A DNA stretch of 21,325 nucleotides from a virus, in the IMG/VR virus record IMGVR_UViG_3300020392_000097, positions 1 through 21,325 of that record, one strand, 5' to 3'. Positions 751 to 20,886 of the stretch are shown here, one piece after another. The notes beneath the pieces are model-generated. The model saw only the letters and a list, made by a program, of their open reading frames with translations. It had not been told where the DNA came from and did no database searches. A program made the position numbers and the translations under genes. The number at the start of each line of letters is the position of its first letter. The stretch's first letter is position 1.

Positions 751-774
751 TAAACTAATGAGATTGGAGTGATT

Positions 775-2222: not shown

Positions 2223-2223
2223 G

Positions 2224-2258: not shown

Positions 2259-2327
2259 AATAAAAAAGTAGATTTTTGTGTAAATACTAGATAAATTCTA
2301 ATTACCTACACTTAGGGTTAAAAGGAC

Positions 2328-5703: not shown

Positions 5704-5705
5704 GT

Positions 5706-5846: not shown

Positions 5847-6096
5847 ACCTTTTAGATTATCACCAGACGAATCTAAAAATAAAAAGTTTGGTGTTTATGT
5901 CAGAAATAAGGCAACAGGCAAGATTAAGAAAGTTACTTATGGTGCAAGGGGTATGTCGATTAAAAAGAATATACCAGCAAGGCAAAAATCGTTTTTGGCT
6001 AGAATGGGCGGAGTTCTAAAAAAGGTCAAAGGTCAGAAGTCTTTATCACCCGCATTTTGGTCTATTAGGGCATGGAAAAAAAGTTCCACATTATAA
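5809..6096 (+). CDS. Small basic protein 3 (DUF6321-like)
   Basis: 95 residues, basic. The pattern KKFGVYVRNKATGKIKKVTYG, then MSIKKNIPARQKSFLARM and FWSIRAWKK matches a family seen next to head genes of cyanophages and other marine phages (I believe DUF6321). In relatives I remember, the RARH-x-C and YWSC positions carry cysteines that could bind metal. Here the equivalent places read ARMGG and FWSIRAW, so those cysteines are absent. ATG at 5809 lies within the zinc-ribbon gene. A weak AGG at 5799-5801 precedes it. Likely head-assembly or packaged protein. Family call from memory. Confidence 0.7.
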   Translation: MAKYRGKEVKLNKPFRLSPDESKNKKFGVYVRNKATGKIKKVTYGARGMSIKKNIPARQKSFLARMGGVLKKVKGQKSLSPAFWSIRAWKKSSTL

Positions 6097-6099
6097 TTC

Positions 6100-8097
6100 A
6101 TGTCAAAAATTTTAGAAAAACTAGCAGACCAGCATGAAGAAAGAATAATCAATGTTTTATATAAACTTGAAGAAGATGTTGTCAAAGAAGTTACAAGAGC
6201 AACAAAAGGGCAACTGGTTTCACAAAGATTAGCTATTCAATTACGACCAGCTATAAAAAAACTAATTGATGAAAGTTTTTTAGATGAAGCAGACACAATT
6301 ATAAATCAAGAATATAACAAAATAGCCAAAGAAGTTTTAGATAGATTTGGTGAAATGCCAATCCCAAGTAAATTCAAAAGCCTTACAGAAGTTGACCTTA
6401 GAACTATAAATGCCCTTAAATATCAATCATTTAGCGGATTTGAGGACATTGCAGAAAGATTTCTCAAAGTGATTAATGATGAAGTTTACCAAAGTACAAT
6501 AGCTGGTAGACCTTTTGAAGATATGGTCAGCAATATTAGGTCACATATAAACGGGGTTTATAAATCCTCAAATAGTGCAGAAATTAATGAACTGGTTGAT
6601 TTTATAAATGAAAATAAATTTGATAATGCAAAAAAAGCACAGGTAGAAGAAGCGGTCAGAAAATTACACACACAATATGCAAGTGATAGGGCTGGAAACA
6701 ATTTAAGAAGATATGCAAGTCAGATAGCCCATGATTCTGTAATGCAATTTCACGGACAATTTACAGTCGCAAAAGCAAAAGAAGCTGGGCTTACTCATTT
6801 TACATATACAGGAACTTTAGTTCGAGATAGTAGAGAATTTTGTGTTGGTATGCTTAACAGGACACTCACAGAAGAACAAATACGAGAAATGTGGAACAGA
6901 AGGTCTTGGCAAGGTAAATCAACTGGTGACCCTTTTATTGTAAGGGGTGGTTATAGATGCAGACATACTTGGCTTCCAACAGACCCAGCATGGGGCGAAG
7001 AAGCAGATGAAATACCCGAAGAAACACCAGTACAACCGACAACACCCCCGCCAGTTGTTGACGAAACAGACATATTTCAACCTATCAATCGTGAAGGTGT
7101 TACAGAACAAACAATTAAAATAGTTTCTGCAAATGAAGCTACAAAAAGACTAAATAAAATTTTTAATGATGCCAGTAAAGATGACAGATATTTAAATAAA
7201 AATAAAGTTCATTACTCAAGACAAAGAGTTGAAGACTTTGGAAAATTAGCGGGTTCAAAATTAGATGACAATAGTTTGTCTATGATATTGGCTTTGATGC
7301 CCGAAGCAGAACAATTATGTAAAAAATTTAATGTGCCTATGATAAGAGGAATAAGAGGTTCAAAAAATACAACTTCTTTTTTAGCTAATATGGGCGATGG
7401 AACAATGGGTATGCAAGTTCAATTTGCAAAAAGAACTTCAAAAAATATTGGAAGTAAAGCTGTAAACGAAGCTAGAAGCAAAAAAATAGAACAACAACTT
7501 GATAAACTTTTAGATGAACAAGATGTTTTAACTAAGCAATTAGAAAAAATTTATAAAGAAGTTGGGGCTGAAACCTATTTTGAATTTAGAAGAAACACAG
7601 GCATAACTTTAGTTCAACTAAGAGCAGTAGAACAATTATTAAAAAAGAAAACTAAATTAAATGACAAATATAATGAACTCAATCAATTATCAAGTTCATC
7701 ACTTTATACCGAGAAATCTAATTGGAAAAGAGGTGATAATTTAAAAAATAGACCTTTTTCAGCAAAGGCATTTGAAGATAATAATTTAGACCAGTTTAGA
7801 GCCACATTTTACCATGAAATAGGACATCATGTTCATCAGCAATACAAAATTAAAGATATTAGGGTAAGCCCCGCTAGTGGACTTGAACCCGAATGGACAC
7901 AAGTTGAAAGACCATTAGAAAAAAGACTAAATAAAGTTAGAAACATTAAAGAACACAGCCCATCGGGTTATGGAACAACTAACACAAAAGAATGGTTTGT
8001 TGAAAACTTTTCACTTTATTATAGAGGTAAAGAAGATTTAGTAGCCCCCGAATTTTTGAAATTACTACAGGAAATAAAAGATGACAAAATCCCTTGA
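6100..8097 (+). CDS. MuF-type head morphogenesis protein fused to C-terminal HEXXH metallopeptidase domain
   Basis: 665 residues, at least two domains. The N-terminal 1-190 is helical. Residues about 195-295 form a Mu F/SPP1 gp7-like domain: YASQIAHDSVMQFHGQF, THFTYTG, RDSREFCVGMLNR and GGYRCRHTWLP, with conserved Cys248 and Cys287. A Pro/Glu-rich linker (298-325) follows. Residues 330-665 are unlike ordinary MuF proteins and hold a helical stretch (about 455-530) and FYHEIGHHVHQ, giving the zincin motif H572-E573-x-x-H576, with KEWFVENFSLYY at 630-641 offering Glu631 or Glu635 as third ligand. MuF proteins are minor head proteins carried in the virion, and C-terminal MuF fusions to toxin or enzyme domains are known. 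The peptidase may therefore be an injected effector, or may process capsid or scaffold. No clear ribosome site before ATG 6100. Confidence 0.85.
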   Translation: MSKILEKLADQHEERIINVLYKLEEDVVKEVTRATKGQLVSQRLAIQLRPAIKKLIDESFLDEADTIINQEYNKIAKEVLDRFGEMPIPSKFKSLTEVDLRTINALKYQSFSGFEDIAERFLKVINDEVYQSTIAGRPFEDMVSNIRSHINGVYKSSNSAEINELVDFINENKFDNAKKAQVEEAVRKLHTQYASDRAGNNLRRYASQIAHDSVMQFHGQFTVAKAKEAGLTHFTYTGTLVRDSREFCVGMLNRTLTEEQIREMWNRRSWQGKSTGDPFIVRGGYRCRHTWLPTDPAWGEEADEIPEETPVQPTTPPPVVDETDIFQPINREGVTEQTIKIVSANEATKRLNKIFNDASKDDRYLNKNKVHYSRQRVEDFGKLAGSKLDDNSLSMILALMPEAEQLCKKFNVPMIRGIRGSKNTTSFLANMGDGTMGMQVQFAKRTSKNIGSKAVNEARSKKIEQQLDKLLDEQDVLTKQLEKIYKEVGAETYFEFRRNTGITLVQLRAVEQLLKKKTKLNDKYNELNQLSSSSLYTEKSNWKRGDNLKNRPFSAKAFEDNNLDQFRATFYHEIGHHVHQQYKIKDIRVSPASGLEPEWTQVERPLEKRLNKVRNIKEHSPSGYGTTNTKEWFVENFSLYYRGKEDLVAPEFLKLLQEIKDDKIP

Positions 8098-8269
8098 AAA
8101 AATAACAGAAATTTTACAAGAAAAAGGCGAAAATCTTTCTAAAGAAAATATTGCACAAATTAGAGAATTGTATGTGGATTTAAGTTTGAAAGAGAATACA
8201 ATCATCAATGATATCGAAGAAATAATATCACAAATTGAAATAACACCGAAAGAAGATGTAAAGATTTGA
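8081..8269 (+). CDS. Small acidic helical protein downstream of the MuF-peptidase
   Basis: 62 residues, no recognised family, predicted almost fully helical (EKITEILQEKGENLSKENIAQ, then ELYVDLSLKENT). It overlaps the end of the MuF-peptidase gene by 17 bases and has AGGAAA at about 8070-8075. The tight overlap suggests coupled expression. Position directly after a possible effector makes it a candidate inhibitor or immunity partner, or simply a small assembly protein. Neither is shown. It overlaps the -35 element of the next promoter at its 3' end. Confidence 0.65.
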   Translation: MTKSLEKITEILQEKGENLSKENIAQIRELYVDLSLKENTIINDIEEIISQIEITPKEDVKI

Positions 8270-8294
8270 AAAAATTCAATAAATTTGATATAAA
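8266..8294 (+). promoter_or_regulatory. Sigma70-like promoter for scaffold and capsid genes
   Basis: TTGAAA at 8266-8271 and TATAAA at 8289-8294 are separated by exactly 17 bases, each one mismatch from consensus. Expected transcription start is near 8301, three bases before GGAGGAC (8304-8310), an excellent ribosome site 4 bases ahead of the scaffold ATG. The gap 8270-8314 is one of the few non-coding gaps in the window. AT-rich sequence can mimic promoters, but spacing and position support it. Confidence 0.6.
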
Positions 8295-8314
8295 TAGTAA
8301 AATGGAGGACATAA

Positions 8315-9028
8315 ATGTCAGAAGAAAATAAAGTAGAACAAACAGAAGAACAGGAACAGGTTACACAGCCCGAAGTTACTGAAGAAAAGCCAAAAGAAAG
8401 AATGTTTACAGAAGCAGAAATGCAAGAGATTGTTACAAACAGAGTGGCAAGGGATAGAAGTGCATTAAATAAAAGGTTGGGTGTAAAAGACTTTGATGAA
8501 GCTGTATTAGCTGTAAAACAACAAAAAGAATTAGCAGAAAAACAAAAGATACAAAAAGGCGAGTTTGAGGAAATTCTAAAAAACAAAACTCAAGAGTTTA
8601 ACAGGGAAAAAGAAGAATTACAAAACCAATTAAGAGATATAAAGATTAATAAAGCATTGTTATCGTCTGCTTCAAAAGGCAGAGCAATAAACCCCGACCA
8701 AGTAGTTTCACTTTTACAAAATCAAATCAAACTAAATGAAACTGGAAATGTTGAAATACTTGATTCAAAAGGTTTACCAAGATATAACAATAATGGGGAA
8801 CTCTTTACAACCGATGAACTGGTTCAAGAGTTTTTGACACAGAACCCGCACTTTGTATCACCAACCCCTAGCGGTAGTGGCACAAGGTCAAATGTGGACA
8901 GACAAGAACTCAAATCGTCTTTTAAACTTGAGGATTTAGATTTTAGTAACAAAGAGCATAGAGATATCTACCGCAAATATAAAGCGGAAAGAGATTCCAA
9001 GCCTAGAGTTATTAACATAAACAAATAA
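8315..9028 (+). CDS. Capsid scaffold protein
   Basis: 237 residues, soluble, highly charged. An acidic Glu/Gln/Thr-rich N-terminus (1-28) is followed by MFTEAEMQEIVTNRVARDRS, a signature of many phage scaffold proteins (the F-T-x-x-E-x-x-x-x-V-x-x-R pattern), then a long coiled coil (about 60-115). The C-terminal half is Gly/Ser/Asn-rich and ends basic. It lies directly before the capsid gene, as scaffolds do, and would guide prohead assembly and then leave. The ATG is preceded by GGAGGAC at 8304-8310, the best ribosome site in the head module. No protease domain is seen in it, so any removal would need an outside protease or exit intact. Confidence 0.87.
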   Translation: MSEENKVEQTEEQEQVTQPEVTEEKPKERMFTEAEMQEIVTNRVARDRSALNKRLGVKDFDEAVLAVKQQKELAEKQKIQKGEFEEILKNKTQEFNREKEELQNQLRDIKINKALLSSASKGRAINPDQVVSLLQNQIKLNETGNVEILDSKGLPRYNNNGELFTTDELVQEFLTQNPHFVSPTPSGSGTRSNVDRQELKSSFKLEDLDFSNKEHRDIYRKYKAERDSKPRVININK

Positions 9029-9052
9029 TTTAGCTTTTTTAAGGAGTAATAT

Positions 9053-9892
9053 ATGGCTAATGAAACAACCAGTTCAACCATTTCGGAGTTGTACACCGAG
9101 ATAGTTGCAGAAGCATTGTTCATTGCTAATGAGCAATCAATTATGAGAAACCTTGTCAGAAACTACACTATTGCGGGTGGTGGTAAATCAGTTGAAGTTC
9201 CAATTTATTCAGCGGTATCAGCGTCAGCAGTAAACGAAGCTACTGATTTAAGTAATACAGCAGTAAATCCAACATCAGTTACTATAACAGCTTCAGAAGT
9301 TGGTATTATGACAACATTAACAGACCTTGCAAGAAATTCAGCTTCAAGAAATGTAGCTGGAGATATTGGAAGATTATTTGGGGAAGCTATTGCAAAAAAG
9401 ATAGATGGTGATTTATCAGCATTATTTACTGGCTTTTCTACAGAAAAAGCGGGTGGTGCTGGTCAAGAACTTACAGTTCAAGACTTGTTTGAAGCTAGTG
9501 CAGAACTTATGACAAATAATGCCCCAGCCCCTTACTATGGTGTATTTCACCCGAAGCAAATATTCAATGTTAAGAAGTCTTTAACAAATACATTTGCTGG
9601 TTTAAATACAGAATTATCAAACGAAGCTATGAGAAATGGTTTAGTTGGTCAGATTGCTGGTATTCAAATTTTTGAATCAAGTAATATTTCTGTTGATGGT
9701 TCAGACGATAGTATTGGTGGAGTATTTTCCCAAGATGCTTTAGCTTTAGCAATGATGCAAGACCTAAAGATTGAAAGTCAAAGAGATGCTTCATTAAGAG
9801 CAGACGAAATCGTTGCAACAGCAGTTTATGGTGTCGGTGAATTACACGATACATATGGTGTTAAATTAACAGCAGACTCAGTTGCAAGTTAA
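9053..9892 (+). CDS. Major capsid protein (HK97-fold)
   Basis: 279 residues. The N-terminal helix SELYTEIVAEALFIANEQS, followed by MRNLVRNYTIAGGGKSVEVP and a Ser/Thr/Ala-rich strand region with EATDLSNTAV, is the typical N-arm/E-loop layout of HK97-fold capsid proteins. The later PYYGVFHPKQIFNVKK, GLVGQIAGIQIFESSNI and ALAMMQDLKIESQRDASLRAD segments fit the A and P domains. There is no long N-terminal delta domain, consistent with a separate scaffold. Strong ribosome site AAGGAG at 9041-9046. A terminator hairpin follows directly, as expected for the most abundant virion protein. Codon use is Ala GCA/GCT-rich and biased as for high expression. Confidence 0.93.
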   Translation: MANETTSSTISELYTEIVAEALFIANEQSIMRNLVRNYTIAGGGKSVEVPIYSAVSASAVNEATDLSNTAVNPTSVTITASEVGIMTTLTDLARNSASRNVAGDIGRLFGEAIAKKIDGDLSALFTGFSTEKAGGAGQELTVQDLFEASAELMTNNAPAPYYGVFHPKQIFNVKKSLTNTFAGLNTELSNEAMRNGLVGQIAGIQIFESSNISVDGSDDSIGGVFSQDALALAMMQDLKIESQRDASLRADEIVATAVYGVGELHDTYGVKLTADSVAS

Positions 9893-9899
9893 AACTTAT

Positions 9900-9921
9900 G
9901 GGGTGGGAAACCACCCCTTTT
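9900..9921 (+). terminator. Intrinsic terminator after capsid gene
   Basis: GGGGTGG (9900-9906) pairs perfectly with CCACCCC (9911-9917) around a GAAA tetraloop (GNRA type), followed by TTTT (9918-9921). The short T-run may allow partial read-through so that downstream neck and tail genes are transcribed at a lower level. Confidence 0.87.
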
Positions 9922-9937
9922 CATTAAGGGAAAGATT

Positions 9938-10126
9938 ATGGATAAGGTAAAACTTACAAAAGGCGATAGAGTTATCGAAAGACCTAAAGTTGATTATGAA
10001 AACAATATTGATATATGGACAAGAAGGGGTTGGAAGCTAGACGAAGGCAAGCCAAAAGCCCCGCCAAAAGACCAAACTATTATTGAGGAAAAACCAGCCC
10101 CGAAACCAGCTAAAAAGGATAAATAA
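9938..10126 (+). CDS. Small hypothetical protein between capsid and neck genes
   Basis: 62 residues. The N-terminal KLTKGDRVIERPKVDYENN leads to IDIWTRRGWKL, then a Lys/Pro-rich tail (PAPKPAKKDK). Small proteins with an F/W-x-x-x-G-W/Y-K motif and charged tail are frequent near the heads of marine phages. The gene at 11506-11661 shares this layout. AAGGGA (9926-9931) precedes the ATG, and the stop overlaps the next start (TAATG). Probable minor structural or assembly protein. Function unknown. Confidence 0.65.
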   Translation: MDKVKLTKGDRVIERPKVDYENNIDIWTRRGWKLDEGKPKAPPKDQTIIEEKPAPKPAKKDK

Positions 10127-10602
10127 TGTCCTCAACAGTTTTTAGTGTCCAAAATACACATCTGCAAAAGATACAGCCCGATATTTTAGAATTTGGAATA
10201 ACAACTTTTGTTGACCAAATACAATTTGCTGAGAATGATGTTATAAGGCGAATTAGGGAAGAATGGTGGGAAAGATACAGACACACAGTTCGTTACAAGG
10301 ATATTACTAAAGTAACATCTGTTGAAATGGAAAATAGCAAACTTACACCCGCACAATTTGAACTGGCAGTTGTTTATTTGGCATTATGGAAATATATTTA
10401 TCCTCAATTAACGAAATGGCGTGACCCCGACACAGGCGAAGGTAAAGACACATTTCAAGTTCAGATAGACTTTTATCAAAAAAGATATGATGAAGAGTTT
10501 CAAGCTATTTTACGAGATGGTGTTGAATATGATGAAGATGGTGGCGGGACTGTAAGTGATAGTGAAAAAGAACCAATTCATCATTTACGATTAGTTAGAT
10601 GA
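10126..10602 (+). CDS. Head-tail connector/adaptor protein (putative)
   Basis: 158 residues with helical N-terminal half (IQFAENDVIRRIREEWWERYRH) and LTPAQFELAVVYLALWKYIYP in the middle, then an acidic tail. First sizeable gene after the capsid, in the place normally occupied by the head-tail adaptor that sits under the portal. The pattern of conserved aromatic residues (EEWWERYR, LWKYIYP) fits adaptor proteins in related siphophages, but no fold motif is diagnostic. AAGGA at 10115-10119 before ATG; the end overlaps the next gene by four bases (ATGA). Confidence 0.6.
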   Translation: MSSTVFSVQNTHLQKIQPDILEFGITTFVDQIQFAENDVIRRIREEWWERYRHTVRYKDITKVTSVEMENSKLTPAQFELAVVYLALWKYIYPQLTKWRDPDTGEGKDTFQVQIDFYQKRYDEEFQAILRDGVEYDEDGGGTVSDSEKEPIHHLRLVR

Positions 10603-11066
10603 TACAAGCACAAGCCAAAGTTAACACAATAGAGGTTACGAACCTTTTAAAAAGAATTGGTAGAAAACAAAGGGCTGTTATTACTAAATCACTTAATAGA
10701 GTTTCAAACATGGCTGTAATGATGATAACTAAGCGTACACAGGCTGGAAAACTACCCGATGGTGGTCAAATGCGGTCATATGCAAAAGGTACTGTCAGAA
10801 GCCGAAAAAAGAGGGGTAGACAAACAGGTTTTGTTGACCTTACAGACACGGGCAAAATGTTTCGCAGTTTAGATTTCAGAACAACAGGATTTAAAAGCAC
10901 ATTGTTTTTTTCAAATATGGAAAGAGCAAAAATTGCTTCTTTTCACGATACTTTCGGTGTTGGTAGAAGAAAAATTACACGACCATTTTTTTCCATTGGA
11001 GATAAAGAAGAACTCAAAATAAAAGCTGAATTTTCAAAGTTTTATTTTAAAGAAATGAGATTATGA
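10599..11066 (+). CDS. Neck/tail-completion protein (HK97 gp10-like)
   Basis: 155 residues, strongly basic. Shows the family pattern LTDTGKMFRSLD (81-92), AKIASFHDTFG (110-120) and RRKITRPFFSIG (123-134), as in HK97 gp10-like and virion-morphogenesis proteins whose RPF(F/L)xG motif is a hallmark. It would complete the head-tail joint. The start overlaps the previous stop (ATGA) and its own end overlaps the next start the same way, so the three neck genes are coupled. Assignment by motif and position. Confidence 0.8.
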   Translation: MIQAQAKVNTIEVTNLLKRIGRKQRAVITKSLNRVSNMAVMMITKRTQAGKLPDGGQMRSYAKGTVRSRKKRGRQTGFVDLTDTGKMFRSLDFRTTGFKSTLFFSNMERAKIASFHDTFGVGRRKITRPFFSIGDKEELKIKAEFSKFYFKEMRL

Positions 11067-11506
11067 GCAAAAGAGAAAACATAGCTGGTGATATAATTAC
11101 AAAACTTGATGCAGTTACCAGCCCTATCGAGTTTAAAAAAATTACAAGAGAACCTTTTGAAGTTGAAGAATTAAGTGATGCACAATTTCCAGCCTTATTT
11201 GTGCAATCGGGTGACGAAACAAGGGAAGTGTCTAGCATAGGTGATACTGGTGCTGGAACTTACAAAGGTACATTAGATTTTTTGATTGTTGCTTTTGGAA
11301 AAGGCACAACAAGCAATATTGATACAGTTAGAAACCAAATTATTGAGGTTATCGAAGAAACACTTGATAATGATGTAACAAGAAACGGAAACGCTATTGA
11401 TACACAGATAATTGAAGCAACAACAGACGAAGGGACAATTTATCCCTATGGCGGGGTAAGAATAACTGTTAGAGTAATATATGAATTTACAAGAGGGAGT
11501 GCATAA
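11063..11506 (+). CDS. Tail terminator protein (putative)
   Basis: 147 residues. Layout resembles lambda gpU/HK97 tail terminators: N-terminal helix (ENIAGDIITKLDAV), a strand with FPALFVQSGDE, then YKGTLDFLIVAFGKG, a helical segment IDTVRNQIIEVIEETL and a closing strand TVRVIYEFTRG. Such proteins cap the tail tube at the head side. Position between the gp10-like gene and the tube gene is right. Overlaps the previous gene by four bases, and its TAA overlaps the next ATG by one. Confidence 0.7.
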   Translation: MSKRENIAGDIITKLDAVTSPIEFKKITREPFEVEELSDAQFPALFVQSGDETREVSSIGDTGAGTYKGTLDFLIVAFGKGTTSNIDTVRNQIIEVIEETLDNDVTRNGNAIDTQIIEATTDEGTIYPYGGVRITVRVIYEFTRGSA

Positions 11507-11661
11507 TGGCAAAACAAATCACAATGTCAAAAGATGACATGATTATTCGTTGTTCAGAAGACCACATAGAACATTTTAAAAATCTTGGGTACAAAGAACA
11601 AAATAATACTTCAAAGAAATCCGAAAAAATGTTAAAACCAAAAGAAGAAGAAAAGGAGTAA
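11506..11661 (+). CDS. 51-residue small protein
   Basis: A short gene between tail terminator and tail tube. It begins at an ATG that overlaps the upstream stop (TAATG) and ends four bases before the tube gene ATG. It codes for MAKQITMSKDDMIIRCSEDH, then IEHFKNLGYK and a Lys/Glu-rich tail. The F-x-x-x-G-Y-K motif followed by a charged tail parallels the W-x-x-x-G-W-K and charged tail of the 62-residue protein at 9938-10126. AAGGAG for the next gene lies within its last codons. Translation coupling and fit into an otherwise empty 158-base gap make it very likely real. Function unknown. Confidence 0.75.
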   Translation: MAKQITMSKDDMIIRCSEDHIEHFKNLGYKEQNNTSKKSEKMLKPKEEEKE

Positions 11662-11664
11662 AGC

Positions 11665-12051
11665 ATGGCTACACATCACGGAAAAGAGGGTGTTGTTACT
11701 ATTGGTGGAACGACACTTGGCAATGCAACTGGATTTACAGTTGATACTACACACGATGTTGTTGAAGATACCGCATTAGGTAATTCAATGAAATCTTTTT
11801 TAGTCGGAAGGGGTACATTTACCGCCACGATTGAAATGAATTTTGATGAAACCGATACTGGTCAGACAACAATGGTACAGGGTTCTGAATTAACATTTGC
11901 ATTTTTGCCCGAAGGCAATGAAAGTGGCGATAGAAAATTTAGTGGCACAGGTATCGTAACTGGAATGTCAGTTGGTGTACCTTTAGATGGTGTAATAACT
12001 AGAACTGTTAATATTCAAGGCACGGGTGGTCTTACAATCGGCACAGTTTAA
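11665..12051 (+). CDS. Major tail tube protein
   Basis: 128 residues, beta-rich. HHGKEGVVTIGGTTLGNATG at the start, VEDTALGNSMKSF, then GRGTFTATIEMNFDETD and TGIVTGMSVGVPLDGVITR fit the compact tail-tube fold of siphophages, with a long loop between early strands. It would polymerise as hexamer rings around the tape measure. Strong ribosome site AAGGAG at 11653-11658 suits an abundant protein. Followed by the tail chaperone genes, the conserved order in siphophages. Confidence 0.85.
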   Translation: MATHHGKEGVVTIGGTTLGNATGFTVDTTHDVVEDTALGNSMKSFLVGRGTFTATIEMNFDETDTGQTTMVQGSELTFAFLPEGNESGDRKFSGTGIVTGMSVGVPLDGVITRTVNIQGTGGLTIGTV

Positions 12052-12065
12052 TTTAAGAGTTAAAC

Positions 12066-12419
12066 ATGGCAGATAACAAGATTGATTATTTTAGTGGTGT
12101 TCGTGACCATTTTAATAGCCTAGAAACACAAATTATAGAAGTCCCCGAATGGGGCTTGGTAGGTGATATGGCTATCCATACCAAACCTTTTAACATGATG
12201 GAAAAGCAAAAATTGTTTAAAGGTGCCACTAATACTGATTTGTTAGTTTTGATTGATGTAATTATTACAAAGGCTTTAACAAAAGATGGTGAGTTAATGT
12301 TTAATGCAAGTGATGCTTTAAGTTTCAAGAAAAAAGCAGACACAAACATTATTGCAGAAGTTGCTACAAAAATAATGGGAACAGGAAACACCGATGTTGA
12401 TGACTATAAAAAAAACTGA
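12066..12419 (+). CDS. Tail assembly chaperone, short form (lambda G-like)
   Basis: 117 residues in frame 0, ending in DDYKKN and a TGA at 12417. Helical protein between tail tube and tape measure, the standard place of the gpG-type chaperone that coats the tape measure before tube assembly. Typical features are the EVPEWG strand near the start and KQKLFKGATNTDLLVLIDV in the middle, seen in many chaperones of this class. AAGAG at 12055-12059 precedes the ATG. A frameshift near its end produces the longer form (next entry). Confidence 0.85.
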   Translation: MADNKIDYFSGVRDHFNSLETQIIEVPEWGLVGDMAIHTKPFNMMEKQKLFKGATNTDLLVLIDVIITKALTKDGELMFNASDALSFKKKADTNIIAEVATKIMGTGNTDVDDYKKN

Positions 12420-12586
12420 AGAACGATAATGAACTTCACAATATTTTTAGTTTAGCCGAAAGATTACATAAAACAGTTTCCGAAATCTTGCAAATGCCAG
12501 TAAGTGAATTTTATATGTGGATAGCATATTATGAAATTCAAAACGAAGAAAGAGAACGAGAAATGAGATTGGCACAGGCAAGATAA
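12066..12586 (+). CDS. Tail assembly chaperone, -1 frameshift fusion (lambda G-T-like)
   Basis: Product of programmed -1 slippage at A AAA AAC (12410-12416). After the slip the reading continues CTG AAG AAC GAT AAT to a TAA at 12584-12586, giving a 173-residue fusion. The added C-terminal part (NDNELHNIFSLAERLHKTVS, then PVSEFYMWIAYYEIQNEER) has the M/L-P-V-x-E-x-x-x-W-x-A-Y/F pattern of the T-type domain in HK97 and lambda tail chaperones. The downstream frame fills the gap before the tape measure and has no credible start of its own. Both the site and the order are as in characterised systems. Confidence 0.85.
12410..12416 (+). promoter_or_regulatory. -1 ribosomal frameshift slippery heptamer
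   Basis: A AAA AAC in zero-frame register (codons AAA AAC at 12411-12416), the end of an 8-A run (12408-12415). The zero-frame stop TGA follows at once at 12417. The only stem seen downstream is weak (TGAAG 12417-12421 with CTTCA 12434-12438, no spacer), so slippage may depend mainly on the heptamer. Confidence 0.85.
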
Positions 12587-14695
12587 ATGGCAAGTAAACA
12601 AGTAAATATTGACATCATAGCGAAGGATAAAACCCGACAAGCTATGCAAAGTGCGACAACGAATGTCGACAAAATGAAAAATGCAGTATTTAATTTGCGA
12701 AATGCACTTATAGGATTAGGTGCTGGGGTTGCAATTAAATCTTTTGTTGATGTTGGTAAACAAGTTGAATCTTTACAAATCAGATTAAAATTTTTGTTTG
12801 GAAGTGTCGATGAAGGTGCGAAGGCTTTTGATGTCATGGCTAAGTTTGCTTCTAAAGTACCTTTTAGTTTACAGCAAATCCAACAGGGGGCGGGTAATCT
12901 AGCTGTAGTAAGTAAAAATGCAGAAGAACTTCAAGAAATGCTTCAGATTACAGGAAGAGTTGCTTCTGTTACTGGTTTAGATTTTAGAACTACAGCCGAA
13001 CAAATTCAAAGGTCTTTTTCTGCTGGTGTGGCTAGTGCCGATATTTTTCGTGAAAGAGGTGTTAGAGATTTACTTGGATTTAAAGCTGGTGCAACAGTAA
13101 CAGCAGAAGAAACAGCCGAAGCATTTAGAAGGGTTTTTGGTGCAAATGGTAGGTTTGCAAACGCTACAAGTGACTTAGCCAATACATTAGAAGGCAGACT
13201 TTCAATGATTGGCGATAAGTTTTTTAACTTTCAAAAAGTTGTGGCTGAACAATTCTTTGTAGGATTAAAAAGAGAATTTGGGGCATTAGATAAAGCCCTT
13301 GAGGACAATCAAAAAACTATTGATGACATTGCGAAATCTATTGGTGAAGGTTTATCCACAGCAGTTATAAAAGCTGGTGAAGCAGTAAGATTTATTAAAG
13401 ATAACTTTGAAATATTAAAGGCACTTGGTATAGCGATAGTAGTCGGTAAAATTGCAACCGCTTTTCTTAATTTAGCAGTAGCGATAGGAAAAGCAAGGAT
13501 AGCTTTATTAGCTTTTGGAACAGTTGCAAGAACATCAATTATTGGGGCTTTTGTTGGTATTTCTACCGCTATTTTATTAATGAATGATGCAATGGCAAAA
13601 GGTGTAAAACCAACAAATACATTAAATGATTTGTTAAGAAGAAAAAAATTATTAGATGAACAATTAGCAAAAAGCGGAAATGTTGTAAGCAATACTTTAA
13701 AAAACCAAGTGAAATTTATAGACTTACAAATTCAAAAAATAAAAGATGCTGAAACAGCCCGTGCTATGGAAGAAGCTGGAATTAAAAGAATAATTGTCGA
13801 AACGGGCAAACATACAGATGCAATTATATTACAAGCAAAAGCCCTTGATGCTTTAAAAAATGCAAAACCAAAACCCACAGATGGAACAGCTTTAGGAATT
13901 GATGCCAGTTTACCAAGTGTCAAGCCACAAGCATTAATAGATGAAGAAAAATTAGATGCTGTAAAACAAATGGCAAAACTTGAAATGGATATTATGACTC
14001 AGCTTCATAATGACAAAATTAAATCAATAATGGAGAATGATGAATTACAAGCTGAACTTGATAGAATAAGAGCAGATAAAAAAATACAACTTGCACACGA
14101 TACAGCACGAAAAGAATTAGAAATTCAAAAACAAGTTATGTCACAAACTATGCAATTATTAAAAGCTGGTAGGGCTGGTGAAATAAATGTTGAAAAATTA
14201 ACAGGTGAACAAAAAACTGATTTAGCAGTTAAGGTTGGAAGGGAAGCATTAGCCGAAATGGCAAGACATAATGAAAAAGCATTTAAATTAAACAAGGCTT
14301 TTAATTTGGCAGAAGCTATAATGTCCACAGCTAGAGGTGTTGCTAAAGCATTGCCGAATATACCATTAGCCATTGCAATAGGTGCTTTAGGTGCGGTTCA
14401 AATAGCCACGATTGCTAAAACAAAATATCAAGGAAGAAGGCTTGGCGGTAGAATGAACAGGGGTGAGCCTTACATGGTAGGTGAAGCTGGTGCAGAAATG
14501 GTTGTTCCCGATGCCCCAAGTACAGTTATACCAAACAGCAAGTTAAATTCAGTAAGTCAGCCCGTTACAGTAAATTTTAATATAAATACTGTAGATGCTA
14601 GAGGTTTTAATGAATTACTGGTAAATAGTAGGGGTACAATAATAAATTTAATAAATAGTGCAGTTAATGAAAAAGGCAAAGTGGCGATAGTATGA
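12587..14695 (+). CDS. Tail tape measure protein
   Basis: 702 residues, mostly helical. N-terminal NIDIIAKDKTRQAMQ with VDKMKNAVFNLRNALIGLG is the usual tape-measure opening. A hydrophobic block (about 275-335) can form the membrane-inserting region. The C-terminal part has a long coiled coil and then LGGRMNRGEPYMVGEAGAEM and VVPDAPSTVIP (about 617-645), a pattern at the C-terminus of many tape measures. Length sets tail length. At the usual ratio of about 0.15 nm per residue this gives a tail of roughly 100 nm. ATG follows the chaperone fusion stop directly (TAA ATG). The end overlaps the next gene by four bases. No peptidase or lysozyme domain recognised. Confidence 0.92.
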   Translation: MASKQVNIDIIAKDKTRQAMQSATTNVDKMKNAVFNLRNALIGLGAGVAIKSFVDVGKQVESLQIRLKFLFGSVDEGAKAFDVMAKFASKVPFSLQQIQQGAGNLAVVSKNAEELQEMLQITGRVASVTGLDFRTTAEQIQRSFSAGVASADIFRERGVRDLLGFKAGATVTAEETAEAFRRVFGANGRFANATSDLANTLEGRLSMIGDKFFNFQKVVAEQFFVGLKREFGALDKALEDNQKTIDDIAKSIGEGLSTAVIKAGEAVRFIKDNFEILKALGIAIVVGKIATAFLNLAVAIGKARIALLAFGTVARTSIIGAFVGISTAILLMNDAMAKGVKPTNTLNDLLRRKKLLDEQLAKSGNVVSNTLKNQVKFIDLQIQKIKDAETARAMEEAGIKRIIVETGKHTDAIILQAKALDALKNAKPKPTDGTALGIDASLPSVKPQALIDEEKLDAVKQMAKLEMDIMTQLHNDKIKSIMENDELQAELDRIRADKKIQLAHDTARKELEIQKQVMSQTMQLLKAGRAGEINVEKLTGEQKTDLAVKVGREALAEMARHNEKAFKLNKAFNLAEAIMSTARGVAKALPNIPLAIAIGALGAVQIATIAKTKYQGRRLGGRMNRGEPYMVGEAGAEMVVPDAPSTVIPNSKLNSVSQPVTVNFNINTVDARGFNELLVNSRGTIINLINSAVNEKGKVAIV

Positions 14696-15300
14696 GTGGT
14701 GCATTACCAAACACAGATTTTACAGCGATTAATCTTAAAAGTAATCAGAAAACTTTGTTTAGTGAAACAGATAGTGGCAAAACTTTTAGAAGGCAAATTC
14801 AAGGTCAGCATTTTAGTTTTACAATACAGTATCAGCCAATGACACGGGCAGATTTTGCCCCGATACAGGCTTTTATTATGAAACAAAGGTCAAGAAAAGA
14901 AAATTTTACAGTTACTTTTCCCAGTTATTTCAATGCTTTAGGAAATGAAACTGGCACATTACTTGTCAATGGAAGCCATGCGGTTGCAGATACTACAATA
15001 GCCATAGATGGTTTTGCTGGTGATGGTGCTGGTAGATTGAAAGCTGGTGATTTTATTAAATTTGCACATGATAAAGTTTACATGGTTGTTGACGATGTAA
15101 CTTCTTCAAGCAATTCTGCAACAGTAACAATAGAACCACCATTAAGGGAAGCATTAGCGGACAATAGTGCGGTCACTTATGATAGTGTGCCATTTACAGT
15201 ATATTTAACAAGTGATGTTCAAGAATTTAACACAAATTCAAATGATAAAAATGGTAATTTACTTTTTTCTTATGAATTTGATGTTCGAGAAAGTTTATAG
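14692..15300 (+). CDS. Distal tail protein (putative)
   Basis: 202 residues, beta-rich, directly after the tape measure. The segment SFTIQYQPMTRADFAPIQAF followed by KQRSRKENFTVTFP resembles a family of tail-tip proteins of marine siphophages (Y-x-P-M-T-R-x-x-F-A-P then a short strand), which I recognise from memory without a firm family name. It likely forms the ring at the tube end. Start overlaps the previous stop (ATGA), stop overlaps the next GTG (TAGTG). Confidence 0.65.
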   Translation: MSGALPNTDFTAINLKSNQKTLFSETDSGKTFRRQIQGQHFSFTIQYQPMTRADFAPIQAFIMKQRSRKENFTVTFPSYFNALGNETGTLLVNGSHAVADTTIAIDGFAGDGAGRLKAGDFIKFAHDKVYMVVDDVTSSSNSATVTIEPPLREALADNSAVTYDSVPFTVYLTSDVQEFNTNSNDKNGNLLFSYEFDVRESL

Positions 15301-15866
15301 TGGCTAGAGGTCTATCAAGTGCGGTAAAAACAGAACTAGCAACAGGTAATATTGAACCTGTTATGTTAGTTGAATTAGGTTTTGGCACACCTGTTTATTT
15401 AACCAATGCAAGTTTTAATATTGTTTCAAATGTTTCGGGTTCATCAAGAACTTATTTAGCAAATGGACATTTAAGAGGAATAACAAATATTAGTGAAACA
15501 AATCAGCCAACAAAAAACAGTTTATCATTAAGTCTTTCGGGTGTTGACCAAACATATGTATCACTTGTTTTAAATGAAAATGTTATTAATGATGATGTCT
15601 TTATATACAGGGGTTTTTTAGATTCAAATATGGCACTAATAGCCAATCCTTTTTTACTTTTTTACGGAACGATTGACCAGTTTAAAATTACAGATACGAC
15701 ACAAACAGCAAGTGTAGTTTTAACAATTACTTCACATTGGGCTAATTTTTCCAAAACTAGCGGGAGGACAACAACAGATAATTCACAAAAAAGATTTTTT
15801 AGTTCAGATAAAGGCATGGAGTTTTCTGCCCTTACTGTAAGAGATATTAAATGGGGTAGGGTATGA
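15300..15866 (+). CDS. Tail-tip hub protein, DUF2163-like
   Basis: 188 residues with GTG start at 15300 overlapping the upstream stop by one base; no closer ATG is in frame nearby. N-terminal MARGLSSAVKTELATGNIEP with VMLVELGFG and the C-terminal SQKRFFSSDKGMEFSALTV then WGR match the general DUF2163/GTA gp13-like pattern (tail hub component next to J). Stop overlaps the next gene by four bases (ATGA). Call based on pattern and on order: tape measure, distal tail, this gene, acetyltransferase, J-like protein. Confidence 0.6.
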   Translation: MARGLSSAVKTELATGNIEPVMLVELGFGTPVYLTNASFNIVSNVSGSSRTYLANGHLRGITNISETNQPTKNSLSLSLSGVDQTYVSLVLNENVINDDVFIYRGFLDSNMALIANPFLLFYGTIDQFKITDTTQTASVVLTITSHWANFSKTSGRTTTDNSQKRFFSSDKGMEFSALTVRDIKWGRV

Positions 15867-16306
15867 CAAGCGTGCATTTATACCAAGCAGAAAAAAAAGA
15901 TTTTCAAAACATTTATGATTTATTGGTAGAGTTTAAAGAAGTTGATTTAGTAGACCTAAATTTTCCCGATATTGATAAAGGTAAACTCACAACTTTTATT
16001 AATACAATATTACAAAAGGGAAAAATTATTCTTTTAAAAGATTTAGACAAAAATGAACTAATAGGCTGTTGTATATTTCACAAATCAGAATTTTGGTTCA
16101 GTAAAGGGCAAATGATAAATATTCATGTAATTTACATAAAGAAAAATTTTAGAAATTATAAACTTGTAAAAACTATGATTGAAAGCGTGAAAAAAATTGC
16201 AAATGGATTGCCGATTGTTTTGGGAGTAACAACAGGCTTACAAATAGACCCAGTATTTAAAAAACTAGGATTTGAAAATATGGGTAGTAACTGGAGATTG
16301 CTCTAA
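15863..16306 (+). CDS. GNAT-like N-acetyltransferase in tail-tip operon
   Basis: 147 residues. Fits the GNAT order: N-terminal helices (KKDFQNIYDLLVEF), strands with GKIILLKDLDKNELIGCCIF, then motif-A strand INIHVIYIKKNFRNYKLVKTMI and C-terminal LQIDPVFKKLGFENMG with the K-x-G-F motif. The acetyl-CoA loop reads RNYKLVKT where most GNATs have a Gly (R/Q-x-x-G-x-G/A), so cofactor binding may be altered. In gene transfer agents and many siphophages this slot, between the DUF2163-like hub and the J-like protein, holds an NlpC/P60 peptidase, so the acetyltransferase is a substitution. Fully overlapped starts on both sides (ATGA, and TAA directly before the next ATG) show it belongs to the operon. 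Target unknown. Confidence 0.75.
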   Translation: MTSVHLYQAEKKDFQNIYDLLVEFKEVDLVDLNFPDIDKGKLTTFINTILQKGKIILLKDLDKNELIGCCIFHKSEFWFSKGQMINIHVIYIKKNFRNYKLVKTMIESVKKIANGLPIVLGVTTGLQIDPVFKKLGFENMGSNWRLL

Positions 16307-19300
16307 ATGTGCGGATTTGTTGGAGATATTATTGATGGCATTGTCGATATTATCGAAGATGTTGTCGAAATTGTTGTTGATGTTGTCGAAGATGTTATCG
16401 GTTGGCTTGTTCCAATGCCCGATATCCCCGAATTTGGTGATAATTTTGCAGAGCAACAGGCAAAAGGTGTTTTGGTCAATAAATTCACCGCAAATGCACA
16501 TATTCCTATAGTTTACGGAACAAGAAAAGTCGGTGGTAATGTTGTATTTTTGCAAACATCGGGAACAGATAATCAATATCTTTATATGGCTATTGTTTTA
16601 AGTGAAGGCGAAATAAACGATATAACAAAAATATTTGTTAATGATAAAGAGGTAACTTTTAGCGGGGATTTACAAGACAATGTTCAAAGAACTGTCGCAA
16701 GTAGTGATGTAAATTTCTTTGATAGTTCAAGTTTGATAACTGTAGAACCACATTATGGAACAGATAGCCAAACAGCTTCATCATTATTATCAACCTTAAC
16801 TTCATGGACAAGCAACCACAGATTAAGAGGTCTAGCTTATTTAGCAATTCGATTTGAATGGAACGCTGATAAATTTGGTTCATTACCAACTGTTCAAGCT
16901 ATTGTAGAGGGAAGAAAAATATATAATCCAAACTTAGACAGCACAGTTACAGGCGGAAGTGGTAGTCACAGAAAAGATGACAGCACTACATGGGAATATT
17001 CAGATAATCCAATACTTCAACTATTAGATTATTTAAGAAATGAAAGATTTGGTATGGGTATACCTAACAGCTATTTTGACAGTAATTTTGCAGATTGGCA
17101 AACCGCAACAGATGTTTGCGATACAAATATAACCCCGTTCAGCGGTGCAAGTCAGATTCATTTGATGGATAGCCATACTGTTGTAGATACATCGGTCAAA
17201 GCAATAGATAATGTGAAAAACTTTGTTAGGGGTTCAAGGTCATACTTAGATTTTAGTTCGGGTGTATATAATATTTTAGTAGAAACAAGCGGTTCGGCTT
17301 CTATTTCTTTAACTGAAGATAATATTATCAATGGCATTAGTATTCAAAGTAAGAATAAAAACTCAAGATATAATAGGGTTATTGTAAGTTTCATAAATCC
17401 CGATAAAAACTTTCAATCAGATACAGCACAATTCCCACCAGTAGACGAAACTGGTTTGGCAAGTGCAGACCAACACGCTACTATGAAAACAGCAGATGGC
17501 GGGTTGCTTTTAGAAGGTAGGTTTGATTTTTCCATGTTTACAAGCCCATATCAAGCCCAAGAAATGGCAGAAATCATTTTAAGGCGGTCTAGGTCAAGTT
17601 TAGATATATCGCTCACAGCAGACGCTACAGCCCTTGACTTGTCTATTGGAGATATTGTGAATGTTACCCATGCAACACCAGCATTTTCAGCAAAGCCATT
17701 TAGGGTTCAAGGTTTGACTATAAATTCAGACCATACAGTAAGTTTACAATGTTCAGAACATCAAGATAGTTTTTATACATTTGGAACACAACAAGAAGTG
17801 CCAACAATACCCGATACAGTTTTACCAAATCCTTTTAGTGTATTACCACCAGCAAGTTTGACTTTAGATGATGAATTAGTCGAATATGCAGACGGAATTG
17901 TTATAACAAGATTGTTAATAACTATTGGTGCTTCAACGGATTTATTTGTCGATAACTACGAAGTTCAAATCAAACAAACTTTAGACCCAAGCGGTAATGC
18001 TGTAAGCGATGAATTTAGAGAAATAGCAGTTGGAAAAATACTTGAATATCAACATCTTAATGTTATTGATGGTGCAACATACCAAGTTAGAGCAAGGGCA
18101 GTAAATACGATTGGTTCAAAAAGCACATTTATTTCTACAACAAGGGTTATCATCGGTGGTGTTGATGCCCCTAGTAATGTTGAAGATTTTGCGGTTGAAC
18201 TACATGGACAAGACCATTTAAAATTAACTTGGACACCGCCTTCTGCAAATAGTGATTTAGATATTTCTTTTTATGAAATTAGATATCAAAATGTGACAAC
18301 TGGTGCAAACTGGTTAAATTCAACAAATCTTGTTCGATGTCCTAGAAGAAAATGTGATAATGCAATCGTACCCGCAAGAGTAGGTTCATATCTAATAAAG
18401 GCAGTAGATAAAAACGGAAATACTTCCGCAGAAGCTACAATTATTTCAACCAATATTTCAGCTATACAAGCATATCAGCAAATATCAACTTTTTCAGAAA
18501 TACCCAATACATTTACAGCATTAGACCAAATGGACACAAGTTTCCCATTAGCTGTAAAAGTAGATGCTTCGGGCGATACTGTTTTAACCCTTGATACTGT
18601 TACAAATTTTGACGATACAGTTGGAAATTTTGATAGCCCAACAGGTGATTTTGAATTAGGCGGAACAGATTCAACATCAAACCCTAATTTTAATAATTCA
18701 AATAGAGATTCTAAAGGGTTTTATAATTTTATAAACTCATTAACACTTCCTCAAATATATGACGGGAATGTTGAGCCAAGTATTACACTTGATGCAGAAA
18801 ACCCTTATGATTTGTTTGATAGTGGTCGGGGTGCATTGTTTTTTGATTCAGCAAAAGCCCCTTTTGATGGTACAGAACAAATTCACGCTTTTCATAGGGT
18901 GCAAATTGCAACATCAACAACATCATTAGCAGATTGCACAAATTTCGGTGACATTAGTCAATCAGCAACATTTAAATTTAAATTTGCTAAATTTAGATTA
19001 AAATTGACAAATGACGATAATCAAACTTCTAGCAATGTAAAACAAATTGATATAAAATTGAACATGGAAGAAAGAACTTTTGCGGAGAATGATTTGCAAA
19101 CTTCAAGCGGAACAAAAACAATTACATATACAAATCCATTTTATGCAGTTCCAGCGATAGGAATTTCTGCACAAAATATGTCAACAGGTGATGTTTTTAC
19201 AATAAGTTCTAAAACAGTAAATGGCTTTACAATAGCTTTTGCAAACTCAAGTGGCGGGGCTGTTGATAGAACTTTTGATTACATTGCTAAAGGTTATGGT

Positions 19301-19315
19301 TTGCAAAGTAGTTAA
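16307..19315 (+). CDS. Tail tip/host specificity protein, J-like
   Basis: 1002 residues. An unusual acidic-aliphatic repeat (residues 7-31: DIIDGIVDIIEDVVEIVVD and on) opens the protein. Then KGVLVNKFTANAHIPIVYGT (54-72) is the signature of J-like tail-tip proteins in marine siphophages, followed by GGNVVFLQTSG and the hub domains. Two fibronectin type III-like domains lie at about 510-615 and 617-715 (APSNVEDFAVELHGQDHLKL, LTWTPP, FYEIRYQ). The C-terminus is a beta-rich region ending FDYIAKGYG. It would bind the host receptor and form the tail baseplate hub. GGAGA at 16293-16297 precedes the ATG. No lysozyme or peptidase domain recognised. Confidence 0.9.
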   Translation: MCGFVGDIIDGIVDIIEDVVEIVVDVVEDVIGWLVPMPDIPEFGDNFAEQQAKGVLVNKFTANAHIPIVYGTRKVGGNVVFLQTSGTDNQYLYMAIVLSEGEINDITKIFVNDKEVTFSGDLQDNVQRTVASSDVNFFDSSSLITVEPHYGTDSQTASSLLSTLTSWTSNHRLRGLAYLAIRFEWNADKFGSLPTVQAIVEGRKIYNPNLDSTVTGGSGSHRKDDSTTWEYSDNPILQLLDYLRNERFGMGIPNSYFDSNFADWQTATDVCDTNITPFSGASQIHLMDSHTVVDTSVKAIDNVKNFVRGSRSYLDFSSGVYNILVETSGSASISLTEDNIINGISIQSKNKNSRYNRVIVSFINPDKNFQSDTAQFPPVDETGLASADQHATMKTADGGLLLEGRFDFSMFTSPYQAQEMAEIILRRSRSSLDISLTADATALDLSIGDIVNVTHATPAFSAKPFRVQGLTINSDHTVSLQCSEHQDSFYTFGTQQEVPTIPDTVLPNPFSVLPPASLTLDDELVEYADGIVITRLLITIGASTDLFVDNYEVQIKQTLDPSGNAVSDEFREIAVGKILEYQHLNVIDGATYQVRARAVNTIGSKSTFISTTRVIIGGVDAPSNVEDFAVELHGQDHLKLTWTPPSANSDLDISFYEIRYQNVTTGANWLNSTNLVRCPRRKCDNAIVPARVGSYLIKAVDKNGNTSAEATIISTNISAIQAYQQISTFSEIPNTFTALDQMDTSFPLAVKVDASGDTVLTLDTVTNFDDTVGNFDSPTGDFELGGTDSTSNPNFNNSNRDSKGFYNFINSLTLPQIYDGNVEPSITLDAENPYDLFDSGRGALFFDSAKAPFDGTEQIHAFHRVQIATSTTSLADCTNFGDISQSATFKFKFAKFRLKLTNDDNQTSSNVKQIDIKLNMEERTFAENDLQTSSGTKTITYTNPFYAVPAIGISAQNMSTGDVFTISSKTVNGFTIAFANSSGGAVDRTFDYIAKGYGLQSS

Positions 19316-19335
19316 AAAAAAGGTATAAAAATATT

Positions 19336-19650
19336 ATGGCACAAGTATCAGATGTAAGTTTAGCCAATCAAGGCTTCAGCAGTTTTAGAACTGAACTTAA
19401 CAATATTTTATCTGCTCTTAATAGTTCGCATATAGGAAGTTCAGCCCCTAGTTCGGTAACTACAGGCACAATATGGGTTGATAATGGCACAAGCGGAGTT
19501 TTAAAAGTAAAAATAAATGATGGTTCAGATAATGTTGAATTATTTCAAATTAATATAAGTAGTAATGCAATTTCAAGTAATATGTCGGTTACGGGAACAA
19601 TTTCGGAAACAGACCCAAATGCACTACCTTTAGCAATAGCACTTGGATAA
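19336..19650 (+). CDS. Small virion-associated protein (fibre-type)
   Basis: 104 residues. The N-terminal VSDVSLANQGFSSFRTELNN followed by ILSALNSSHIGSSAPSS and TTGTIWVDN is a pattern common in small tail-side proteins of marine phages (head or tail appendage, annotated variously as tail fibre or structural). The GTIWVDN turn and following strands suggest a small beta domain. Weak ribosome site (AAGG about 13 bases upstream). Function as a structural appendage is inferred. Confidence 0.6.
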   Translation: MAQVSDVSLANQGFSSFRTELNNILSALNSSHIGSSAPSSVTTGTIWVDNGTSGVLKVKINDGSDNVELFQINISSNAISSNMSVTGTISETDPNALPLAIALG

Positions 19651-19659
19651 GGGGGATAA

Positions 19660-20010
19660 ATGGCAAATACATTTAAAGTTAAAACAAATGGGGCAATGCC
19701 CGCAAGTGCGGGAACACCGCTAACCCTTTACACAGTACCCAATTCAACAACAACAGTTGTAATAGGATTGTTACTTTGTAATATTCACACAGCAACAGTT
19801 ACAGTAGATGTTCAACTTGTTTCAGATACATCAGACACAGAAACAAACGAAACAGTTTTATTAGCAAAAGATGTTTCAATACCAGTTGGTTCAACATTAG
19901 AACTTTTAACGGGTGGTAAAGTTGTTGTTCAAGCAACAGATGTTTTAAAAATTGATTGTAGTGTAGCTGGAAAAATTGATGCTACATTAAGTATTTTAGA
20001 AATTACATAG
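19660..20010 (+). CDS. Small beta-rich virion protein
   Basis: 116 residues, Thr/Val-rich beta protein (PLTLYTVPNSTTTVVIGLLLC, DVQLVSDTSD, STLELLTGGKVVVQATDVLKI). The pattern, with a Y-T-V-P-x-x-T-x-x-V-V-I core, is typical of small structural or appendage proteins in marine phages. Strong ribosome site AAGGGGG at 19649-19655. No enzymatic motif. Probably decorates the virion or fibre. Confidence 0.6.
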   Translation: MANTFKVKTNGAMPASAGTPLTLYTVPNSTTTVVIGLLLCNIHTATVTVDVQLVSDTSDTETNETVLLAKDVSIPVGSTLELLTGGKVVVQATDVLKIDCSVAGKIDATLSILEIT

Positions 20011-20017
20011 GTGTAAT

Positions 20018-20575
20018 ATGGGATTTATCGGAGTACAACCAGCAACAGTTCCTTTAACATCATCAGATATTACAGATGGTATTATAACAACAGCTAAGAT
20101 TGCAGATGATGCAGTAGGAAATACAAAATTAGATTTAACAGCAAATTATGCTTTTACTGGAACTATAACTGGTGCAGGTAAACTTGGACAAGTCTTAACA
20201 CAAACGCCAACAAGTTCACAAACTTCTGCAACAAGTAGTTATGTTGATAGTGGTCTAAGTATTAATATTACACCTGCTTCAACTTCAAGTACAATATTAG
20301 TAATGGCTGTTCATAATGCACAAAATTCAGCCAATAATACTGGGGTGCATATTAGATGTTTTAGAGATTCTACACAAATAGGTGGTGGTAGGAGTGATGA
20401 CTTAGCTTTTTGGGTAGCAGGTGCTTACAACCATGATGGATATCCAGTTATTATATTAGATTCTCCAAACACAACAAGTCAAGTTACTTATAAAACAGAT
20501 TTTAAAGCATTTAATGGTGGAACAGCTTATTTAAATCATAATTCAACAATGGTGTTACAAGAAATATTAGGTTAA
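20018..20575 (+). CDS. Tail fibre protein
   Basis: 185 residues. N-terminal FIGVQPATVPLTSSDITDGI and TTAKIADDAVGNTKLDLTAN is a fibre N-terminus common in marine phages (attachment motif followed by a trimerising repeat region). The C-terminal domain (residues about 60-185) is beta-rich, with STILVMAVHNAQN and GVHIRCFRDSTQIGGG. It is the only gene with GCA-GGT codon pairs and contains all GCAGG/CCTGC pentamers seen in the window (near 20176, 20271 and 20418), suggesting different ancestry from its neighbours. AGGTG at 20009-20013 precedes ATG. Likely receptor-binding. Confidence 0.7.
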   Translation: MGFIGVQPATVPLTSSDITDGIITTAKIADDAVGNTKLDLTANYAFTGTITGAGKLGQVLTQTPTSSQTSATSSYVDSGLSINITPASTSSTILVMAVHNAQNSANNTGVHIRCFRDSTQIGGGRSDDLAFWVAGAYNHDGYPVIILDSPNTTSQVTYKTDFKAFNGGTAYLNHNSTMVLQEILG

Positions 20576-20580
20576 AAAAA

Positions 20581-20886
20581 ATGGCAACAATACAAGAAGC
20601 ATTACATGAATTGGGCATTAAAGAATGGGCAATTTTTGGAGAGCCTACAAATGAAACTGAATTTAAATCTATGTTTAAGAAATCACTAGGAGAAGATAAA
20701 AATGGCAGAGCCATATTAAGTTCTAAAGAAACAGATTTTGGTGTTACATGGAAACAAATTCAAGATAAAAAAACTGAATTAGAAAAAGCAGAAATAACTA
20801 AGATAGAAAAAAAGAAATCAGCAAAGTTAAAACTTAAAGATTTAGGTTTAGATGATGAAGAAATTAATGCACTTATAGGACAATAA
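20581..20886 (+). CDS. Tail fibre assembly chaperone-like protein (putative)
   Basis: 101 residues. ALHELGIKEWAIFGEPTNET with EFKSMF and ILSSKETDFGVTWKQIQDK is a pattern I recognise from small proteins placed beside fibre genes in marine phages (G-E-P-T-x-x-x-F, then D-F-G-V-T-W). They are usually annotated as hypothetical or fibre-assembly proteins. The C-terminal half is charged and helical, ending KLKDLGLDDEEINALIG. It lies between two fibre genes, which fits a chaperone role, but this is inference from position. Confidence 0.55.
   Translation: MATIQEALHELGIKEWAIFGEPTNETEFKSMFKKSLGEDKNGRAILSSKETDFGVTWKQIQDKKTELEKAEITKIEKKKSAKLKLKDLGLDDEEINALIGQ

Follow-up and report, generated by a model that had tools for sequence, protein, structure and literature searches.

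Near-Total, Lineage-Specific Loss of Short DNA Words in a Pelagiphage Genome Fragment and a Probable Recent Import of Its Tail-Fibre Tip

Introduction

Rusinov et al. (2018, PMC6286503) described the avoidance of restriction sites in prokaryotic viruses, mainly for palindromic sites, and found none that was systematic where type I, III, or IIG systems are concerned. In pelagiphages, a single methylation motif, GANTC, is depleted in about half of the phages, and SAR11 genomes had yielded no report of restriction systems (PMC9516812). A third arrangement of relevance is the modular exchange of tail-fibre tips, which involves a conserved N-terminal part, a swapped C-terminal receptor domain, and a small neighbouring gene.

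The stretch of DNA analyzed here, referred to as the window, is the whole of record IMGVR_UViG_3300020392_000097 and is 21,325 bases in length. An earlier note on this DNA proposed that the word GCAGG is avoided everywhere but in one fibre gene, which escaped the constraint and was recently imported. The pattern found resembles the avoidance of PMC6286503 in that recognition-site words are depleted in the phage and not in host-like DNA. It differs in that many words are lost at once, with five four-mers and 14 five-mers, many of the latter asymmetric, close to zero across 21 kb, and in that the sets differ between related phages. Compared with the GANTC depletion of PMC9516812, the phage world is the same but the purge falls on about 19 other words; the count of GANTC, which is the CcrM site, is roughly halved in the window (18 copies against 41 expected). 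In contrast to the report of no restriction systems in SAR11, apparent type II loci were found here in SAR11-like genomes. The fibre gene follows the usual layout of tip exchange, except that words forbidden to the recipient flag the swapped part, giving the avoidance set of the donor. Restriction-site avoidance itself is already known; what is new is its breadth, the lineage-specific sets, and the host setting.

Materials and Methods

Word counts were limited to the span of the window, and near-identical longer relatives were used in addition. The relatives compared were viral contigs with a capsid protein 86–100% identical. Codon-preserving shuffles kept the protein and the codon counts. The comparison of the window with the relative G006 used genes aligning at approximately 70–81% DNA identity. 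Enrichment for restriction sites was calculated after reducing each lineage of the clade to a single representative.

The host survey covered 197 genomes of one family, approximately 0.6–1.6 Mb each. The family was reached through an approximate proteorhodopsin query (best identity 65%) and is called SAR11-like from its genome size, CcrM, and proteorhodopsin neighbourhood. The fibre protein was modelled as a monomer with AlphaFold2 using an alignment of 20 relatives.

Results

The Window and Its Closest Phages

By terminase and capsid proteins, the nearest cultured phages are the Pelagibacter phages HTVC026P, HTVC112P, HTVC202P, and HTVC111P. The window is probably part of the genome of a siphovirus-type pelagiphage that is a relative of these four. 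Scans of it for Rfam families and tRNAs gave no matches.

Several genes outside the fibre region are worth recording. Positions 6100–8097 encode a head-morphogenesis-like protein of 665 aa. Its C-terminal part contains an HExxH motif (YHEIGHHVHQQY) and is possibly a fused metalloprotease domain; Pfam gave nothing above cut-off for this protein. A GNAT-type acetyltransferase gene at 15863–16306 is flanked by tail genes, and the same place in cultured relatives is occupied by a gene labelled toxin-activating lysine-acyltransferase. The relative G001 carries a 74-aa HNH_3 gene (L162, 3912–4136) between the small and large terminase genes, which the window lacks at that point (2633).

GCAGG in the Window

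The features used below are listed here by coordinates, strand, and description. G005 and G006 are relatives of the window; G003, G014, and L002 are contigs that carry the C-terminal domain of the fibre gene.

1..20149, no strand, purged core in which the 19 words of the next section are near-absent; exceptions are ACGT at 1509 and CCAGA/TCTGG at 5863
20018..20575, + strand, tail-fibre gene, 185 aa, an open reading frame whose relatives are annotated as tail fibre
20018..20174, + strand, resident-type N-terminal part of the fibre gene, 91.7% DNA identity to G005/G006
20175..20575, + strand, C-terminal domain, probably imported; G014 94.6% identical over 20224–20480, G003 83%, L002 81%
20581..20886, + strand, small gene, 101 aa, which probably came with the domain; G014 89.4% identical over 20558–20879
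20174..20178, + strand, GCAGG site 1, GCA-GGT here, GCA-GGA in L002, GCT-GGA in G003
20273..20277, − strand, GCAGG site 2, CCT-GCT on the + strand, CCT-GCA in L002, CCT-GCT in G014, CCA-GCT in G003
20417..20421, + strand, GCAGG site 3, private to the window, GCA-GGT here, GCA-AAT in G014, GCT-AAT in L002 and G003

A recount on both strands of the window bears out the earlier note, which had placed GCAGG or its complement near 20176, 20271, and 20418 alone. There are three copies in 21,325 bases, at 20174 (+), 20273 (−), and 20417 (+), one to two bases from those positions, and none lies outside the fibre gene. Dinucleotide shuffles predict 21 copies and codon-preserving shuffles 25.5, with a minimum of 13 in 400 shuffles. 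Outside the module at 20150–20886, no copy is present where codon-preserving shuffles give 24.1, so chance is rejected and the word is avoided. The probability that three randomly placed copies all fall within this module is approximately (1.44/25.5)^3 = 2e-4.

Upstream of 20160, where about forty CAGG had been read as ACAGG throughout, ACAGG occurs 34 times on the + strand and four times as CCTGT. CCAGG and TCAGG are absent from the window, and ACAGG is the sole NCAGG word in use outside the fibre gene. The alanine codons before GGN also agree with that reading: GCT is used 28 times, GCG seven times, and GCA twice (both in the fibre gene), despite GCA making up 244 of the 491 alanine codons in the window.

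A Wider Purge of About 19 Words

GCAGG is one among about 19 purged words, a breadth that the earlier note missed. Codon shuffles predict 40 copies of GATC, and the window has none. GGCC, CCGG, and GCGC are also absent, and ACGT occurs once. The five-mers with zero copies are TCAGG, GAGCT, CAGTG, GGATG, GAGAC, GAGGC, GGAGC, ACGGT, and ACGCA, and likewise GCAGC, CCAGG, and GGACC; CCAGA/TCTGG has one copy. Together, the 19 words have five copies in the window against 296 in codon-preserving shuffles (minimum 263), a total that is descriptive only since the words were picked after viewing the window; the relatives and known restriction sites form the real test. The depletion exceeds codon and composition effects. 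The five leftover copies are the three GCAGG sites, ACGT at 1509, and TCTGG at 5863.

Other words are over-used in the window, among them CCCG (83 against 32 expected) and AGCCC (48 against 13). This excess is likely a by-product of the loss of their synonyms.

Word Sets Differ Between Lineages

Nearly all of the compared relatives are purged of some words, and the sets differ between lineages. The base forbidden before CAGG is C, G, or T in the window, and A, C, or T in G005 and G006. In G007 (L174 and L175), which belongs to another phage group, CCAGG is present 240 times against 35 expected, and GCAGG and ACAGG are both at zero. A single degenerate enzyme acting on every non-A NCAGG was considered and set aside because other phages forbid other NCAGG members. 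Within the first 21 kb, the asymmetric four-mer AGCC is at 0/91 (observed/expected) in DSL-LC06 (L190), and GCCC, likewise asymmetric, has no copy against 31–33 expected in HTVC203P (L192; 0/33) and Lederberg (L195). CATG stands at 0/51 in contig L100.

Among the control phages, depleted five-mers number none in Vibrio phage 1.240 and one in Kolga, and in lambda the depleted words are of CTAG type. Markov simulations of the same genomes gave no depleted words.

The aligned genes of the window and G006 exchange opposite words at the same codons. The 44 GCAGG of G006 correspond in the window to 23 GCTGG and five GCGGG, and never to GCAGG. Conversely, G006 never has ACAGG where the window has it (31 positions), and reads ACTGG at 17 of them, and none of the window's 42 GCTGG is GCTGG in G006. 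G006 has 52 TCTGG, and 26 of them are TCGGG in the window. About 70% of these word differences are synonymous, and such mirror-image swaps point to selection acting on DNA words and not on proteins.

Purged Words and Known Restriction Sites

Recognition words of catalogued restriction enzymes account for nine of nine purged four-mers (background 23 of 136, p = 2e-8) and for 21 of 40 purged five-mers (background 66 of 499, p = 3e-10). Among words with three or more G/C, the enrichment has p = 5e-7. GCAGG itself matches known sites only within a degenerate one, GMAGG. In 174 kb of DNA from the host family, the frequencies of the purged words are normal, with ratios of 0.75–1.76.

A PF01555 methyltransferase is over cut-off in 179 of the 197 host-family genomes, mostly as one CcrM-like copy. 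In the centre genome of the family, proteorhodopsin adjoins a thioredoxin-reductase-like gene, both names being read from the sequences. A C5 methyltransferase is over cut-off in 34 of the 197 genomes, several as adjacent pairs. Paired adjacent methyltransferases are usual for enzymes with asymmetric sites. These C5 methyltransferases adjoin HNH_2 nucleases and NgoFVII-, Bsp6I-, Eco47II-, TdeIII-, and SinI-like nucleases, and PADLOC type II nucleases are also found beside them. An NCBIfam scan of these host nucleases named none above cut-off.

In four host-family genomes (L235, L238, L234, and L237), two adjacent C5 methyltransferases lie next to an HNH_2 nuclease. These are apparent type IIS restriction loci. 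The prototype specificities are GGNCC for Eco47II and TdeIII, GGWCC for SinI, and GCNGC for Bsp6I, and the corresponding host nucleases appear to be relatives of such cutters, a family name being no proof of specificity. GCAGC and GGACC are among the words purged most often in the clade representatives. Judged by their genes, type II systems do occur in the SAR11-like family, and their enzymes may cut at purged words. The suggestion of a different restriction pressure in the earlier note agrees with the restriction-site type of the purged words and with the type II systems of the SAR11-like hosts, but no enzyme cutting GCAGG was identified.

The Fibre Gene Is a Mosaic

The closest relative changes within the fibre gene at approximately position 20174, from G005/G006 to G014. 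The claim that the fibre gene escaped the avoidance stands for the part after this position; the first 157 bases are of resident type. The portions shared with this phage amount to 2–4% of G014, 4–7% of G003, and 15–19% of L002, which is a short contig. G014 is donor-like at 95%, not fully identical, and its contig ends in that region.

The carriers of the domain differ in their treatment of GCAGG. It is tolerated in G014 (43 copies against 32 expected) and L002 (18 against 7), and avoided in G003 (1 against 25). In G003, the same domain is present with the sites at 20174 and 20273 removed by synonymous codons. In the window, these two sites show the state expected of a GCAGG-tolerant donor. 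The earlier idea of an import from a differently constrained phage gains support from this, narrowed to the part after approximately 20174 and the next gene, 20581–20886. By its position, the product of that gene is a possible fibre chaperone.

Predicted Fold of the Fibre Tip

The AlphaFold2 model (mean pLDDT 76) has a mostly confident predicted beta-sandwich at residues 55–185, weaker at 121–140. The best solved Foldseek matches are TNF-like lectins, with an E value of 2e-6 and a TM score of approximately 0.5 by query and 0.67 by target. The predicted jelly-roll is like that of PLTL (9ib6) and the N-terminal domain of BC2L-C (2wq4), a likeness of the monomer fold model alone at 14–18% sequence identity. 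The matched lectins bind sugars. Together with the tail-fibre annotation of relatives, the lectin-like predicted fold supports the C-terminal domain as a putative receptor-binding tip.

Tail Blocks of G001 and G002

G001 and G002 are 87–97% identical to the window over 1–17904 and have the same clean core. The tail block of G001 (20144–25121) contains 37 of its 42 forbidden words at 39-fold density (p = 1e-24), and that of G002 (20079–24351) contains 43 of 54 at 25-fold density (p = 1e-27). Since the limits of the blocks were drawn by eye on those same counts, both p-values are a little too favourable. In the G002 block, ACAGG numbers 0 against 8 expected, TCTGG 19 against 4, and GCAGG 10 against 5, which is the G005/G006 pattern. 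GGCC, GCAGC, CAGTG, and GAGGC are absent from both blocks. These blocks, 4–5 kb in length, are an independent and larger version of the fibre-tip case in the window.

Discussion

The account proposed here, a restriction-driven, lineage-specific purge followed by the recent import of a fibre tip from a GCAGG-tolerant phage, is probably correct as a whole. Selection has stripped the lineage of about 19 words of four or five bases, for the most part by synonymous substitution. The purge most likely stems from type II or IIS enzymes of encountered SAR11-like hosts, which would cut unmodified DNA at those words. The forbidden set is particular to each phage lineage. The putative receptor-binding tip and the next small gene would then have been swapped recently through recombination at about 20174, the partner being a GCAGG-tolerant phage with little other relationship to this one. 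The new domain retains two donor-type sites and carries a private third, perhaps because selection has lacked time or because the enzyme is no longer met. The escape is visible for GCAGG alone since the other forbidden words are each expected about once or less in so short a module.

The gaps could in principle reflect codon or codon-pair preference, mutation bias, or an assembly artefact, with no selection on DNA words. The window is indeed skewed in base and strand composition, and some of its words, CCCG and AGCCC among them, are over-used. However, 296 copies persist in shuffles that conserve the protein and its codon use, opposite words are swapped at the same codons between sister phages, cultured isolates are purged as well as metagenome contigs, and host-family DNA has no such gaps. 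As far as these tests go, this explanation is refuted, and hardly any credence is left to it. Another source of selection would be small HNH nucleases of the phage itself or of co-infecting phages, which would cut host or rival DNA at short sites that the phage's own genome must then lack, with the forbidden set shifting when a nuclease is swapped. HNH proteins are found in four cultured relatives and are mutually 34–67% identical, G001 has HNH-like genes and a VRR-NUC gene, and SAR11 has been stated to be without restriction systems (PMC9516812). Against this, one or two nucleases would not suffice for as many as 19 different words in one genome, at least half of the purged words match known restriction specificities, and type II systems do appear in SAR11-like genomes, making the nuclease explanation unlikely.

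For the fibre gene, the competing explanation is that it is resident and evolves fast, and that mutation created its GCAGG sites with no recent import. In its favour, the private site at 20417 may have originated where it stands, and the module lacks the other forbidden words as well. This explanation is quite improbable given the sharp switch of closest relative inside the gene, the 95% identity to a phage that has little else in common with this one, the two sites common to the tolerant carriers, and the matching pattern seen in the G001 and G002 tail blocks. Import of the tip is the preferred reading.

More broadly, we lean toward the view that pelagiphages carry dialects, lineage-specific sets of several to about 20 words held near zero, which would record the restriction enzymes of past hosts and which imported genes would keep from their donor for a while. 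SAR11 bacteria are among the most abundant in the sea. The near-total, lineage-specific loss of restriction-type words, taken with the type II systems in SAR11-like genomes, suggests that restriction exerts strong pressure in that setting. Such forbidden words also serve as a tracer of just-acquired genes and of the type of phage that donated them, even where no close donor has been sequenced. If the dialects are real, they would expose hidden SAR11 restriction systems and mark recent gene exchange between unrelated phages.
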